Origin: Ignavibacteria bacterium
GTDB taxonomy: Bacteria > Bacteroidota > Ignavibacteria > Ignavibacteriales > SURF-24
DNA length: 64,000 nt
Assembly: GCA_025612245.1 (NCBI GenBank)
Contig: JAAXKQ010000002.1
Coordinates: 62,001-126,000 of the forward strand
Direction of reading: 5' to 3'
The position numbers were made by a program, and so were the translations under genes. Positions 53,529-62,443 of this stretch are shown in pieces. Below the pieces are notes generated by a model, which ran no database searches, had not been told where the DNA came from, and worked only from the letters and a program-made list of their open reading frames with translations. Numbering within the stretch: position 1 is the first letter of the stretch; every line of letters begins with the position of its first letter.

Positions 53529-53670
53529 CATATTCCGGTATTTTCTGAAACTTACCCAAAGCGGGCATACTTCGTCCGGGTGAGTTAATTTAACCTTGAT
53601 TTTCACGCATTATTTCTGAATTTTTTCGTTCAAAATTGCCACGTTTATTACATGTTTTGGAGTAAAATTG

Positions 53671-54720
53671 ATGCTTAAAAAAATCTTGCTCGCGGTCTTT
53701 CTTTTGATGCTTTCCCTCGGTCAGGCAAATGCCCAGCTGAAAATCGGCAAGTATGCCGGGGAATTCATGGCTATTGGCGTCGGCGGCAGGGCAAATGCCA
53801 TGGGCGGTGCTTATGTGGCTGTGGCAAATGATGTTACGGCAGGCTACTGGAACCCTGCGGCACTGGCAAGGATAGACTATCCCGAGATCTCACTCATGTA
53901 TTCACAGAACTTCGGCAACCTGGTAAATTACAATTACGCTTCTGCGGCGCTACCGTACGGGGATGACATGAGCTTCGGGCTCTCAATTATCCGCCTTGGG
54001 GTTGACGGAATTCCCGATACAAGACAGGCGCTGGTTGATGACGCTAATAAGGGCAATGTAATTTACGATATCTACAGTCCCAATGCTCGCATTGACCCTT
54101 CGCGCGTTAAGGAATTCAGCAATGCCGACTGGGCATTTTATTTTACATTTGCCAAGAGGCATTCCGATAAGCTTTACTACGGTGCAAACGTTAAGCTGAT
54201 CAGGCGCGACATAGCCGAATACAGTGCTACAGGCATCGGCTTTGACGTGGGAATTTTGTATCAGCCGACCGGCAGGCTTTCACTGGGTGCAAACGTGCAG
54301 GATATAACAACCACACTGGTAGCCTGGAATACGGGTACAAATGAGCTCATATCTCCTACGGCTAAAACGGGCATTGCCTACACATTTGACTTCCTGTACG
54401 GCAAGGTTACACCCGCGGCCGGTTTCGACATGAGGTTCGAAAACCGCAGGTTTGCCAGCCAGATGAACATTGGCCCTGTAAGCCTTGACTTCAGGGGAGG
54501 ACTGGAATACAGCTATAACGACATACTGGCAGTACGCATGGGATATAATGATATTAAGGACTTTACCGTTGGAGCCGGCGTGCGCCTTCCTAAACTTAAT
54601 ATCGACTACTCATTTGCTCATTTCAGCGGAGCAAAAGACGACGCCCTTGGAGATTCACACAAGATTTCCTTAACGCTTACGCTGGAATCCCCGAAATTCC
54701 TCAGGGGCAGCGGCAAATAG
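53671..54720 (+). CDS. PorV/PorQ-family outer-membrane protein
   Basis: 349 residues from the ATG at 53671 (GGAG eight bases upstream; a TTG one codon earlier is less likely). The signal peptide ends near GQANAQ. The conserved PorV opening is present (GVGGRANAMGGAYVAVANDV then AGYWNPAALA), followed by a FadL-like series of strands: YPEISLMYSQNFGNLVNYNY, ADWAFYFTFAKR, SLGANVQDITTTLVAWNTG, LDFRGGLEYSYN and FTVGAGVRLP. PorV proteins are shuttle or barrel components of the type IX secretion system in Bacteroidota, but many homologues serve unrelated roles. No T9SS core gene (porK/L/M/N, sprA) is in view. Confidence 0.82.
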   Translation: MLKKILLAVFLLMLSLGQANAQLKIGKYAGEFMAIGVGGRANAMGGAYVAVANDVTAGYWNPAALARIDYPEISLMYSQNFGNLVNYNYASAALPYGDDMSFGLSIIRLGVDGIPDTRQALVDDANKGNVIYDIYSPNARIDPSRVKEFSNADWAFYFTFAKRHSDKLYYGANVKLIRRDIAEYSATGIGFDVGILYQPTGRLSLGANVQDITTTLVAWNTGTNELISPTAKTGIAYTFDFLYGKVTPAAGFDMRFENRRFASQMNIGPVSLDFRGGLEYSYNDILAVRMGYNDIKDFTVGAGVRLPKLNIDYSFAHFSGAKDDALGDSHKISLTLTLESPKFLRGSGK

Positions 54721-55677: not shown

Positions 55678-56523
55678 ATGTTTTCTTTTAAGCGATCATT
55701 TTCAGCTATGCTCTTCTTTTTTACTCTTATATCCGGTACGGTTTTCCCGCAGGAATTAATGATGAAAAGTATCCCCCAAGATAAGGCGGCATTCAGTTTG
55801 CGATACCTGCATCCATACTTTAAAGAGAATTCTTCGTCTGAGATGAGCACTTTTTCCGGAATTTATGAGTTAGAAGCCACTATTCCTGTAACCGATAAAA
55901 TATATCTTAATTTTCAGCTCCCTTTTGTAGGATATTCATCAAAGTCAGGATGGGATGAAACAACTGAAAGTTCAATCGGTAACATCTATCTTGGAATACA
56001 GGCAAAGAATGTTACATCAGATATTCATACCAATTATTTTTCAGCAGGTTTATACCTGCCCACTGCAAGTGAAAAGCACGATGGGGTTACAATACTGGGA
56101 GCATTTGCGGATTATCCGTCGTTGTCTAAATATGCAGTAAATATATTCTCATTTTACGGCAATTTCGCCAGCCAGTGGAATTTTCCTTCGGGAGCAGGTA
56201 TTGCATTCGATTTGGGCCCGACAATCCTGGTGCCGACAGAGGACAATGGCTCCGAGGATACAGAAGTAATGCTGCATTATGGAATTACCGGGAAATATAG
56301 TTTTAACCATTTTTTCGGGGCAGCCGAAGTTAATGGAAGTTACATACTTACCGAAAGTGAATTGGATTTTGCTGACAAAATTTTTAATAATGTATCACTG
56401 GGAGCAGGCTGGAGTGGCAGTTATGTAACTCCTTCCCTTTTCTATCAGTGGAACATTAACAAACAGTTAAGTAATATTGTGACGGGGGCATTTGGAGTAA
56501 AACTGGAAGTCGTGCTGCCGTAG
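55678..56523 (+). CDS. Outer-membrane beta-barrel protein
   Basis: 281 residues. A signal peptide (FKRSFSAMLFFFTLISGTVFPQ) is followed by antiparallel strands: AAFSLRYLHPYF, YELEATIPVTDKIYLNFQLP, IGNIYLGIQAK, YFSAGLYLPTAS, SGAGIAFDLGPTILVP, VMLHYGITGKYSFNHFF, VSLGAGWSGSYVTPSLFY and a closing NIVTGAFGVKLEVVLP. Eight to twelve strands fit a small channel or transport barrel (the MetA-pathway/OmpW-like superfamily by pattern). A 12-bp hairpin follows at 56530-56569. Confidence 0.68.
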   Translation: MFSFKRSFSAMLFFFTLISGTVFPQELMMKSIPQDKAAFSLRYLHPYFKENSSSEMSTFSGIYELEATIPVTDKIYLNFQLPFVGYSSKSGWDETTESSIGNIYLGIQAKNVTSDIHTNYFSAGLYLPTASEKHDGVTILGAFADYPSLSKYAVNIFSFYGNFASQWNFPSGAGIAFDLGPTILVPTEDNGSEDTEVMLHYGITGKYSFNHFFGAAEVNGSYILTESELDFADKIFNNVSLGAGWSGSYVTPSLFYQWNINKQLSNIVTGAFGVKLEVVLP

Positions 56524-56942
56524 AATTTTGCCGGGTTGTGATTGATTATCTAAACACTCACAACCCGGCGCTAGCTGATGAAGAGCGAATTCTGGCATCT
56601 TTTTCCTCCAGGTAACATCCACTAATTTCTTCTGTCTGATATTTTAGCAAAGCTTACTTTTCCGGCTCCGTCCTTAAAACTTCCGAATAGTTTTTTACCT
56701 TTTGTTTTTAGTGCCACATAGGCATATCGCAAAAAATGTTGATTTGCTGACATTATAAGTTTACTTAATGTCTCGAAGTCCGGAGACCCCCATACAAGAA
56801 AATTGGTTCCCGGGCGTGTAAGCCCTGGTATAAATATGCATAAAAATATAATTCGATATATTTCCCGGATGTATTATATTATCTATACGCATCTTTAGCG
56901 GCATGTCAGGCTTTGATTTTGCCATTATTTCAGGGAGGAACA
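56524..56942. other. 419-base intergenic region with a hairpin
   Basis: It begins with a terminator-like hairpin for the preceding gene. The rest is AT-rich, without a supported gene, and should contain the promoter of the SppA-fusion gene at its right end (the ribosome-binding site AGGGAGGA ends at 56938). Confidence 0.45.
56530..56569 (+). terminator. 12-bp hairpin after an outer-membrane gene
   Basis: GCCGGGTTGTGA at 56530-56541 pairs perfectly with TCACAACCCGGC at 56558-56569 around a 16-nt loop, seven bases past the stop codon. No T-run follows. Confidence 0.55.
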
Positions 56943-59363
56943 ATGAAATTCAAAAAAGTTTTTACCCTTTTCATGCTATGTTCTGCAATAAGCTACGCAC
57001 AGCAGGGCTTTAATACATTTAACGAACAGAACGATTTCCTTCTTACTTCGCCCGGAGCCATGAGGTATGGTCTGCTGGGCTATGATAATCCTGCCATCTT
57101 AACATACCTTGAAGGTCCTGAGGCCGTCTTTAACTGGTCGGATCAGAACGGGCGGTGGAACGATTTCAGGCGCTGGGGGCTTTTTGGCGCGGTAAGGAAT
57201 CTTGGTTTCGGTATGATACATCAAAAGGTGCAGGATAAAGCGGTTACGGACTACAGACTCTCGGCAGCCATGGGAAACAGGGCCTTCAGCCTTGGACTGG
57301 GTTACGGTTGGTCTGGAGGCGACAAGGAAACCTTCGGCCGGTCAAATATTCTAAGGGCGGGACTGCTGATCCGTCCGTCGAGATACCTCTCGCTTGGAAC
57401 CTCAGGTATCGCGTCAACTGAATATTCAACAAAGGAACTCTACAGCGAACTTGCAGCCCGCCCATTGGGAAATGAGTTTATTACGCTGTTTGCCGACATA
57501 GTACTGAGAAATACTGAGATCATACGGGGTAAAAAGGAAGTCTGGAGCGCCGGAGCGGCATTGGAAGTAATTCCGGGTTTAAGGATTACAGGCAGGTACT
57601 TCCAGACAAAAGCCTTCAGTACGGGAATTCAGCTTTCACTTGGGAACATAGGTTTTACTGGGCAGGCGCACTATAACGAAAACCAGGCTCACGCATACAA
57701 TACCTACGGAATACGCATTGGCACATACGACAGGAACTTCTTAGGCTCTCTTTTCCCTAAAAAAGACTATCTGAACATTACGCTTAAAGGAGAGCTAAAA
57801 TACCAGCGCTATGTTTTCTTTGACGAGTCCAACACGCTTTATGACGTTATAAGCCAGATAAATGCCGCAAAAACCGATCCCGGCATCAGGGGAATTGCCT
57901 TAAACGCAACTGAGCTCAAGGTGCCCGGTGAAATGCTCTGGGAGCTGCGTGAACGCCTGCTGGATTTCAGGAAATCGGGCAAAAAGGTGGTCGTATTTCT
58001 TGAACGCCCCGATATGGCAGACTATTACTTTGCAAGCGCGGCGGATAAAATTGTACTGGATCCCCTTGGAACGCTGAGCCTTCAGGGGCTTGTTACGGGA
58101 AGAACGTTTTACAAGGGCACACTGGACAAGCTTGGTATAGGCTTCGATGAACTCAGGTTCTTCAAGTACAAATCCGCAATGGAAAGTTTTTCCAGGGAGA
58201 ATATGACTGAAGCCGACCGTGAGCAGAGGCAAAGGCTTATTGACGTTTATTACGAGCTGATGCGCGATGGCATCAGTAAAGCAAGGGGGATTTCGCCGGA
58301 AAAGCTGGACAGCATTGTAAACAATAAGATGGGTCTTCTTCCACGTGAAGCCATTGAGCTTGGACTTATAGATACTCTGGACCGCTGGGAGAATTCCAGT
58401 GAAGTGATAAAGAAAATTGAAGGAACCAAAAGATCCCTCGTTTCAGCCGGGGCACTGGAAAAGTACAGGCTGCCGGATGACAACAAGTGGGGTGAGTTCG
58501 ACAGGATTGCGATTATCTATGCGATCGGGTCCACTTCAATGGATGGAGGCATTAACGCACGCAAGCTGGTCAAAGACGTGCAAAGTGCGGCGGAAAACCC
58601 GCGCGTAAAGGCAATAATAATAAGGGTCGACTCGCCCGGCGGGGATGCAATGGCGTCTGACTATATTGCAGAGGCAATAAAGAAATACAAGAAACAGAAG
58701 CCCGTTATTGTCTCACAGGGTGCCGTTGCGGCTTCGGGAGGGTACTGGCTTTCAATGTATGCCGATACCATAATCTCCGCCCCGAACACAATTACAGGCT
58801 CAATTGGCGTAATTGGCGCGTGGGTTTACAATGGGGGTTTTTCGGAAAAGCTGGGCTTTACGACGGACCTTGTCAAAAGGGGCGAACATGCTGACCTGGG
58901 CTTCGGGGCAAGCCTTCCATTCCTGGGGCTCGGGCTTCCCGACAGGGCGCTTACGCCCGAGGAAAGAGGCAGAATAGAATACATGATAAAGGACAGCTAC
59001 GACATGTTCATTACCAAGGTTGCCGAAGGAAGGCATCTTAAGCCGGGGTATGTGGATTCGGTTGGACAGGGACGGGTATGGATGGGTCCCGATGCGAAAG
59101 ACAGGCATCTTGTAGACATCATTGGCGGCCTCTATGATGCAATAAAAGTAGCCAAACAGAGGGCAAAGATTTCAGAGGACAAGGAGATCAGATTTATTCA
59201 GTTCCCTGCAATGCCTTTGTTTGATTTTTCATTCCTGAGGCCTTCAATCGTGGGATTTGAGCTGAAGGAAAACGAATTCGTCAACTACATGAAGCTCATA
59301 ATTGAGCATAACGGTCAGGCCATGCCGAGGCTCCCAGTGGAGGATCTGCACCTGATAAAATAA
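56943..59363 (+). CDS. sppA: Beta-barrel-like domain fused to SppA (S49) signal peptide peptidase
   Basis: 806 residues from the ATG at 56943, preceded by GGGAGGA. The signal peptide ends near ISYAQQ. Residues ~20-270 look like a PorV/beta-barrel-like region (MRYGLLGYDNPAILTYLEGP, LSAAMGNRAFSLGLGYGW, LLIRPSRYLSLGTSGIAS, IRIGTYDRNFLGSL). Residues ~290-790 are a complete double-domain 67K-type SppA: the general-base lysine in FFKYKSAMESF (Lys410), and the nucleophile in GAVAASGGYWLS (Ser598) with GSIGVIGAW. Classical SppA is anchored in the inner membrane and cleaves leftover signal peptides. The barrel-like front would place the protease in the outer membrane or periplasm (inference). Ends at a 10-bp hairpin (59371-59396). 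Confidence 0.88.
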   Translation: MKFKKVFTLFMLCSAISYAQQGFNTFNEQNDFLLTSPGAMRYGLLGYDNPAILTYLEGPEAVFNWSDQNGRWNDFRRWGLFGAVRNLGFGMIHQKVQDKAVTDYRLSAAMGNRAFSLGLGYGWSGGDKETFGRSNILRAGLLIRPSRYLSLGTSGIASTEYSTKELYSELAARPLGNEFITLFADIVLRNTEIIRGKKEVWSAGAALEVIPGLRITGRYFQTKAFSTGIQLSLGNIGFTGQAHYNENQAHAYNTYGIRIGTYDRNFLGSLFPKKDYLNITLKGELKYQRYVFFDESNTLYDVISQINAAKTDPGIRGIALNATELKVPGEMLWELRERLLDFRKSGKKVVVFLERPDMADYYFASAADKIVLDPLGTLSLQGLVTGRTFYKGTLDKLGIGFDELRFFKYKSAMESFSRENMTEADREQRQRLIDVYYELMRDGISKARGISPEKLDSIVNNKMGLLPREAIELGLIDTLDRWENSSEVIKKIEGTKRSLVSAGALEKYRLPDDNKWGEFDRIAIIYAIGSTSMDGGINARKLVKDVQSAAENPRVKAIIIRVDSPGGDAMASDYIAEAIKKYKKQKPVIVSQGAVAASGGYWLSMYADTIISAPNTITGSIGVIGAWVYNGGFSEKLGFTTDLVKRGEHADLGFGASLPFLGLGLPDRALTPEERGRIEYMIKDSYDMFITKVAEGRHLKPGYVDSVGQGRVWMGPDAKDRHLVDIIGGLYDAIKVAKQRAKISEDKEIRFIQFPAMPLFDFSFLRPSIVGFELKENEFVNYMKLIIEHNGQAMPRLPVEDLHLIK

Positions 59364-59468: not shown

Positions 59469-61034
59469 ATGTATAAACCCGTAAAAAAAATCGCGCTTAT
59501 CTTAATTCTTGCAATACTTCTTCCCGTAGTATTCCTTTCTGTTTATGAGCTCTCAAGTGTAAATGAAAACGAAAGACTTATAGAAGATACTTTTAATAAT
59601 CAGCTTAATGCCATTCTCTTCAGCGTAAACCAGTATACAGAAGACGTAGTAAACGGCTGGGTGAATAAGATTAACTCAGGCCTCCTGGAAAAGAACCTGA
59701 AGCCGGAGAATTTTAGGAGCGCTATAGAAAAACTTCAAAGTGAAAATCCCATAAATGTTATCTTTACGGCAGATGATTTAACCCTCGGGAATTTTTCCGA
59801 ATTTGACAGCCTTAAGAACGAGGGCACTCGTGAGGCGGTAAAAGAAGGGATTAAGAAAATTCTTGGTCAAAACACTCAGAAGATTAAACGCCTGTATACT
59901 TATAAGCGCGGGGGATATACAAAAATTGAAGCTCTGCCGGGCGTGCCCGGATGCTTTACGGGACTTATGATTTTTATTCCGGATGGTGGAGCAGAGGGAA
60001 AAATTGCCGGGATCGGGATAAGCACAGAAGATTTTGTGCGCTCCAAAATGGGCCCCAAGCTCCAGGAGATCTCGGGCGGAAGGATGCTTATATCTGTTTA
60101 TAAAGGAAAAAACATTCCCGTCTACAGGACAGATGCGGCATTCAGAACTGAAGCCACGCAGAAGCGTCCCATATGGCTTCTACCCGGCTACAGCCTTGGC
60201 ATTGCGCTAAAAGGAGCCACAATTGAAGAGCTGGTTTCCTACAGGTACCGCTTAAGCCTGATACTTGTTATTTCGGTTAACCTGCTTTTAATTGCCGGCA
60301 TCTGGCTCGTCTTCAGGAGTATCAAAAAAGAGATCCGCCTGGCACAGATAAAGTCGGACTTTGTTTCCAATGTTTCGCACGAGCTGAGGACACCGCTGGC
60401 CCTGATCAGCATGTATGCAGAGACACTTGAGATGGGAAGGGTTAAGACAGAGGAGAAAAAAAAGGAATATTATGGTATACTAAGCCAGGAGGCTGTCCGC
60501 TTGAGCCGGATAGTAAATAAGATACTGAGCTTTTCGCAGATTGAAGCGGGACGGAAAAAGTACAGCTTTAAGGAATCGGATCTGAATGAAGTCGTTCAGG
60601 AGGTGTTTAATACCTACAGATTTCACATGGCAAGCAGCGGCTTTAATTTTACCTTTGAGCCTGAGGAAAAGCTGCCTGGAGTAATGCTCGACTGTGAAGC
60701 CGTGGGCCAGGCCGTCATTAACCTCATTGATAACGCTGCCAAGTACAGTGGCGATAAAAAAATTATAAAAGTAACTACAGGGAAAGACCAGGAGTATGCA
60801 TTCGTTGAGGTCCGGGATGAAGGAATTGGCATTTCCCAGGAGGACCATGAGCATATATTTGAGAAATTCTTCCGCGTTTCAACGGGCGACGTGCATAATG
60901 TAAAAGGCACCGGACTTGGGCTGACGCTGGTAAAGCACATAATGGAAGCGCACGCCGGGAAAGTGACGCTTAAAAGCCGCCTTGGTGAAGGGAGCACTTT
61001 CAGGCTGAGTTTTCCTCTTATAAAAAATAATTAA
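59469..61034 (+). CDS. Sensor histidine kinase
   Basis: 521 residues. Two membrane helices (about 8-27 and 262-283) enclose a ~230-residue periplasmic sensor domain. There is no HAMP domain; the second helix leads straight into the kinase core. H box SNVSHELRTPLALI with phospho-acceptor His304; N box LIDNAAKYSG; G boxes DEGIGISQEDHEHIFEKFFR and GTGLGLTLVKHIMEAHAG. It signals to the OmpR-type regulator encoded 10 bases downstream. The sensor domain has no family I recognise, so the signal is unknown. Confidence 0.93.
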   Translation: MYKPVKKIALILILAILLPVVFLSVYELSSVNENERLIEDTFNNQLNAILFSVNQYTEDVVNGWVNKINSGLLEKNLKPENFRSAIEKLQSENPINVIFTADDLTLGNFSEFDSLKNEGTREAVKEGIKKILGQNTQKIKRLYTYKRGGYTKIEALPGVPGCFTGLMIFIPDGGAEGKIAGIGISTEDFVRSKMGPKLQEISGGRMLISVYKGKNIPVYRTDAAFRTEATQKRPIWLLPGYSLGIALKGATIEELVSYRYRLSLILVISVNLLLIAGIWLVFRSIKKEIRLAQIKSDFVSNVSHELRTPLALISMYAETLEMGRVKTEEKKKEYYGILSQEAVRLSRIVNKILSFSQIEAGRKKYSFKESDLNEVVQEVFNTYRFHMASSGFNFTFEPEEKLPGVMLDCEAVGQAVINLIDNAAKYSGDKKIIKVTTGKDQEYAFVEVRDEGIGISQEDHEHIFEKFFRVSTGDVHNVKGTGLGLTLVKHIMEAHAGKVTLKSRLGEGSTFRLSFPLIKNN

Positions 61035-61907: not shown

Positions 61908-62360
61908 TTAACCAAACACGTATTTAAGGTTATATTTCACTCCGAAAGATTTCAGAAAATTAAGGTATTCTTCCTGAAATGTTTGCCTTCTGTGGTGCTC
62001 TTCCTGACACGCAATGTACCTGACTACACTGTTAATCTGCGAATGTGAATATGAAAATGCTCCATATCCATCCTGCCATTTGAATTCACCCACACATAGC
62101 CTCTTGTCATTGATAAAAAATGTTGATGACCGTTTTATATCCCTGACTGTTTCAGCGATGGATATTTCAGTATTCAGGCCAAGGAAATAATGAATATGAT
62201 CGCTGACGCAGTTTATTGCAATCATCTTCTGATGTTTTTTCGATACAACCCCTGTAATGAATTTGCAGAGAGGCTCCTTGAAATCCGGATGGATCAGAGG
62301 TGCCCTCTGTATTGTGGAATGAACAATATGGATGTAGACCTGGGAATATGTGTTTGCCAT
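61908..62360 (-). mobile_element. Y1 HUH transposase of IS200/RAYT type
   Basis: 150 residues from the ATG at 62360 (MANTYSQVYIHIVHSTIQ; an ATG at 62375 adds five). HUH motif in CVSDHIHYFLGL (His55, His57); the helix with the expected catalytic Tyr is SVVRYIACQEEHHRRQTF (Tyr115). FKWQDGYGAFSYSHSQI is typical of the small Y1 transposases of Bacteroidota. These enzymes act on single-stranded DNA and recognise hairpins. The gene is bracketed by palindromes in inverted orientation, so it either mobilises itself as an IS200-like element or is a domesticated RAYT managing a REP family. No TnpB or Fanzor partner is present. Confidence 0.9.
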
Positions 62361-62443
62361 GCCAACATACCTCATAATTGTTTTAACAATATTATTACAA
62401 ATAATACCACAATATGCAAGCGGGAATGGAAAATTGGAATGGG

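Follow-up and report, generated by a model that had tools for sequence, protein, structure and literature searches.

In the usual account, SppA sits in the inner membrane and clears signal peptides. The E. coli enzyme (protease IV, 67K; PDB 3bez/3bf0) carries an N-terminal transmembrane helix and, as a tetramer tied to the inner membrane, degrades peptides released from there into the periplasm (PMC9360617). In Flavobacterium columnare, loss of the ordinary SppA raises vesicle production and stops gliding (PMC13236525). This phenotype concerns a helix-anchored SppA and implies that SppA activity matters for envelope balance in this broad group of bacteria.

Outer-membrane barrels of the FadL type are another set of known systems. 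FadL and TodX are channels for hydrophobic substrates; they have 360–440 residues, a 14-stranded barrel, an N-terminal hatch and an NPA motif. PorV of the type IX secretion system (T9SS) tethers a proteolytic enzyme, the sortase PorU, which is held as a separate protein at the cell surface (PMC5562754). BamG of the Bacteroidota BAM complex is a FadL-family barrel that forms a BAM subunit of its own and lacks an enzyme domain (PMC12578637).

The window, a stretch of 64,000 nucleotides from an Ignavibacteria bacterium, encodes both folds in one chain. The gene (56943–59363, plus strand, as are all its parts) is open and intact in a direct reading of the sequence and codes for 806 amino acids and a stop. 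GGAGG is located immediately upstream of the ATG, in a Shine–Dalgarno-like stretch (AGGGAGGA; limits approximate, 56932–56936, plus strand, read directly from the sequence). Both halves are known folds; their joining, placement and conservation appear new. No account of an SppA linked to the outer membrane, a beta-barrel, PorV, FadL or Ignavibacteria turned up among open-licence papers, which is weak evidence.

The protease half (residues 275–745, 57765–59177) has the tandem S49 fold of E. coli SppA over its full length. It was delimited by two stretches matching Pfam S49 (PF01343), by TIGR00705, which spans residues 295–753, and by 3bez, with a target TM of 0.85 over about 500 columns. Two S49 matches per fusion were found in most genomes. 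The TIGR00705 score of 308.8 bits is just below the equivalog cut-off of 311.45, and the fusion is therefore assigned to peptidase family S49 and not to the SppA_67K equivalog; the TIGR00706 domain score of 220.6 bits is above its cut-off of 155.45. The sequence-only reading had claimed that both catalytic residues are retained, and this was confirmed. Residue 410 is the lysine of FKYKSAMES (general base, 58170–58172) and residue 598 the serine of AASGGYW (nucleophile, 58734–58736). They align with K209 and S409 of E. coli SppA, so that the Ser/Lys dyad is at equivalent positions, and neither varies among 62 aligned fusions. The C-terminal tail (residues 746–806, 59178–59360) has a conserved NGxPMPxLP motif in the alignment consensus and low confidence in the structure model.

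Unlike E. coli SppA, the fusion starts with a signal peptide and a 14-stranded barrel. Sequence and hydrophobicity predict a signal peptide of residues 1–19 (56943–56999) with cleavage near SYA/Q; Q20 is nearly invariant. The best 19-residue window averages 1.0 on the Kyte–Doolittle scale, which is below anchor strength, in comparison to 2.5–3.4 for SppA proteins with a helix anchor from the window's genome and related ones (one of these, L218, has a masked start). Relatives of 588–661 amino acids carry a strong helix. In the model, the barrel occupies the place of this helix and ends about 14 residues before the first S49 strand, the gap being the linker (residues 261–274, 57723–57764). The usual membrane anchor is thus replaced by a signal peptide and a beta domain, as had been proposed from the sequence.

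Single-chain AlphaFold2 models were calculated for the whole protein with 62 full-length sequences (pLDDT 89, pTM 0.85) and for the N-domain alone with 54 N-domains (pLDDT 91.5, pTM 0.85). Both predicted 14 strands between residues 60 and 260 (57120–57722). The top structural matches of the N-domain are FadL, TodX/TbuX/CymD, PorV and BamG with Z-scores of 20–24 and 223–241 aligned residues at 2.9–3.5 Å for most. PorV structures (6h3i_F, 8gl6_F) matched the predicted model with Z 23.1–23.3 over 239–241 residues at 2.9–3.0 Å, and BamG (9hjm_F, 9hiv_F) with Z of about 20. Unrelated barrels, OmpG and CymA, reached only 15–16. The match runs from residue 5 to 243 of the 273-residue model, from the hatch through the last strand. 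This end-to-end match suggests closure of the predicted barrel by strand 1 on strand 14. The hatch (residues 20–59, 57000–57119) matches the N-termini of FadL and PorV. It includes an N49-P50-A51 triplet (57087–57095) whose context, YGYDNPALL, reads like the FadL hatch motif; N49 and P50 are invariant and A51 nearly so in the alignment of 62. An NPA deletion mutant of FadL (PDB 2r4o) is among the structural matches. Unlike FadL and TodX, the fusion barrel is small, with about 240 residues and short loops, is followed by a protease and has no match to the Pfam family Toluene_X.

Residues 1–290 matched no Pfam or NCBIfam family, including PorV/PorQ (NF033709, PF19572) and Toluene_X. The aligned N-domains had no PorV or PorQ family match, with scattered weak hits in relatives at chance level, and a profile search of solved structures found no significant sequence relative of the N-domain. 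Profile comparison with hhalign was weak for a FadL alignment (probability 60%) and negligible for PorV alignments (<2%; 9% for the PorV of the window itself), so that descent from FadL/PorV barrels is based on the fold and the NPA motif. The initial description of some 250 beta-rich, PorV-like residues holds for the predicted fold, with FadL and PorV as closest structures (Z about 23), and does not extend to the sequence level.

The modelled strands average 9.9 residues with one hydrophobic and one polar face. The hydrophobicity of the outward face minus that of the lumen is 2.43, in comparison to 1.21 when residues were shuffled within strands (2000 shuffles, sd 0.23, maximum 1.97). A barrel too short for a membrane is therefore not evident, the face polarity being far above that of shuffled strands. 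The absence of any sequence family match for the N-domain would suit a merely soluble or inner-leaflet-bound beta domain; the protein would then be an SppA of the periplasm or inner membrane whose N-terminus is unusual. This is extremely improbable: the 14-stranded barrel is predicted with confidence, it matches FadL and PorV from end to end with Z of about 23, and its hydrophobic outer face exceeds all shuffles. The soluble fold that would have contradicted the membrane assignment was not seen.

Outer-membrane barrels usually have variable loops outside and tight turns in the periplasm. In the fusion, the loops after odd strands have 6.4 residues and a variability of 2.69 bits, and the turns after even strands have 3.0 residues and 1.65 bits. 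The longer and more variable loops after odd strands place the C-terminus, and hence the protease, on the periplasmic side. PorU, held at the cell surface by PorV (PMC5562754), is a precedent for a barrel that displays the S49 part outside the cell, and a functional parallel to the fusion. For the fusion, such a display is very unlikely, because the even number of strands and the periplasmic hatch direct the C-terminus into the periplasm and the turns are short and conserved on the side where S49 exits. Unlike the separate PorU, the fused protease is predicted to be periplasmic. An outer-membrane location with the protease in the periplasm is thus suggested by the predicted barrel and the missing helix, in agreement with the location first proposed.

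An inward-facing SppA anchored to the outer membrane by a FadL/PorV-type barrel is the best reading of these observations, and we consider it probable. After Sec export and signal peptide removal, residues 20–260 would form a compact 14-stranded barrel in the outer membrane, with the N-terminal hatch as a plug. The last strand would end on the periplasmic side, and the tandem S49 part would be suspended about 14 residues beneath the periplasmic face of that membrane. In this arrangement, the barrel would do the work of the single helix by which ordinary SppA is held in the inner membrane. A tetrameric bowl, as in SppA, is the most likely assembly of the S49 part. With a barrel attached to the end that otherwise carries the helix, this bowl should be directed toward the inner leaflet of the outer membrane. 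The predicted Ser598/Lys410 dyad may cleave hydrophobic peptides or unfolded segments arriving there; conceivable substrates would be outer-membrane proteins that have stalled, or remnants of secretion. Domain order, catalytic residues, barrel fold and conserved architecture are computational results, from which we infer the outer-membrane location, the periplasmic side, the tetramer and the activity; a substrate different from that of the usual SppA is a guess. Signal peptides have no obvious supply away from the inner membrane, which counts against the reading as an anchored SppA.

Conservation within the N-domain opens the question of a transport function. Hatch residues 34–59 are the most conserved stretch (1.16 bits), the side facing the lipid varies more (2.17 bits) than the lumen (1.50 bits), and the charged lumen residues R144, E165, D185, E208, R218 and R258 are invariant or nearly so. 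Together with the FadL-like NPA motif, this would fit a channel that passes or laterally extracts hydrophobic peptides, much as FadL handles fatty acids, and hands them to the S49 bowl. The loops are very short and the barrel is small, and structural barrels too conserve hatch and lumen, for folding. We regard the channel as unlikely. The same judgement applies to a one-chain peptide disposal at the outer membrane, in which a FadL-type barrel feeds the SppA bowl with substrates separate from those of the inner-membrane SppA; it is doubtful.

The location beneath the outer membrane would also suit a quality control of outer-membrane proteins, in which barrel proteins that stall or misfold are removed at the assembly machine. 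Periplasmic proteases of the BepA type are the model for this function. The presence of BamG, a BAM subunit (PMC12578637), among the top structural matches points in this direction. This likeness is common to all FadL-type barrels; a conserved neighbourhood of BAM genes is missing, and the digestion of folded proteins is not known for SppA. Quality control is a tentative and rather unlikely explanation. An outer-membrane anchor for SppA remains the preferred reading.

The domain order is conserved. A homologue search for the same domain order had been suggested. Among 84,980 species genomes scanned, 78 further loci encode the barrel and 76 of these continue into S49. The scan used one peptide pattern, and divergent fusions such as the L214 and L215 discussed below are under-counted. 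The reading frame passes through the S49 serine motif in 75 of the 78 loci. Of the others, one reaches the lysine motif before the contig end (L083), one meets a contig end inside the barrel (L124) and one has an early stop at residue 341 (L070). A few loci have YKT, YKSF or YKSG in place of YKSA in the lysine motif. Chance or an artefact of a single assembly is ruled out by the identical layout in many genomes of several phyla.

In the phylum of the window, the N-domain profile matches 27 of 296 genomes, with frames of at least 800 residues in all but one weak match. No free-standing copy of the N-domain was found; the sole short-frame match is this weak one (G282, E 1.9e-4). Carriers are mostly Ignavibacteria, Kapabacteria, Chlorobiota and Balneolia, with additional unclassified Bacteroidota. 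The fusion is also present in Saccharospirillum and Natronospirillum (Gammaproteobacteria, two named strains), which makes an exclusive link to T9SS unlikely. Among 299 genomes of the phylum to which Saccharospirillum belongs it occurs in 1, the search-centre genome itself. Three carriers are bins classified as 'Bacillota'; these genomes also have Omp85 and are therefore diderm, so that an outer-membrane barrel is plausible in them. The protein of a lone 'Desulfobulbaceae' bin shares 88% identity with one from Ignavibacteriae, and this bin may be misassigned. No conserved operon partner was detected, the commonest neighbour family being present in 12 of 66 loci, which identifies the two fused domains as the conserved unit. 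A spread on plasmids was rejected, as no plasmid match was found.

The phylogenetic analysis of the S49 part placed 36 fusions on one side of a branch (SH-aLRT 100) and 19 ordinary SppA on the other. Two divergent SppA fusions with a more distant barrel domain, L214 (872 amino acids, genome G271) and L215 (832 amino acids, genome G259), were placed on long branches among ordinary SppA in the free tree. A single clade of all fusions including these two was not rejected (p-AU 0.57), and a single origin is the most parsimonious interpretation. The barrel-domain match of L214 and L215 has E-values of 1e-12 and 1e-17, and L214 has a YNPA motif. Judging by these two proteins, the architecture seems to predate the main clade and to extend beyond it. 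The gammaproteobacterial fusions (L103, L116, L122) are nested inside Balneolia in the S49 tree, which suggests a transfer between halophiles, bacteria of saline habitats.

Ordinary SppA is often encoded alongside. The genome of the window has a second SppA of 590 amino acids with a strong N-terminal helix. A search for S49 proteins covered 26 genomes with the fusion, and most of these also encode an ordinary SppA, either about 590–670 or about 300–320 amino acids long. In six genomes of one family (G132, G140, G156, G236, G263, G294), no S49 protein other than the fusion exceeds the curated cut-off. Most lineages retain both forms of SppA, and the fusion can be the sole form. The presence of both in many genomes and of the fusion alone in some enables a clean test of the role of SppA at the outer membrane. 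If the proposed anchoring is true, a conserved lineage of SppA hung from the outer membrane provides a second workplace for this type of protease. The FadL/PorV barrels, already scaffolds for secretion and barrel assembly in Bacteroidota, would also gain a branch that bears an enzyme.

The fusion gene stands alone between an upstream ORF that ends at 56523 and a downstream histidine kinase that starts at 59469. The gap that separates the fusion gene from this upstream ORF contains a strong inverted repeat (cgggttgtg...cacaacccg, 56533–56566), possibly a terminator, though without a clear T run. The upstream ORF (55678–56523, plus strand) codes for a signal-peptide protein of 281 amino acids that resembles another outer-membrane barrel and has no Pfam or NCBIfam match. 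A separate barrel gene of the PorV/PorQ family (53668–54720, plus strand) is located 2.2 kb upstream of the fusion; it scores 144 bits with the NCBIfam PorV_fam model and 204 bits with the PorV2 model, below the PorV2 cut-off. The genome of the window has a large set of 26 PorV-family matches. Downstream, an IS200-like Y1 transposase (PF01797, E 8.6e-21) is encoded on the minus strand (61908–62375).
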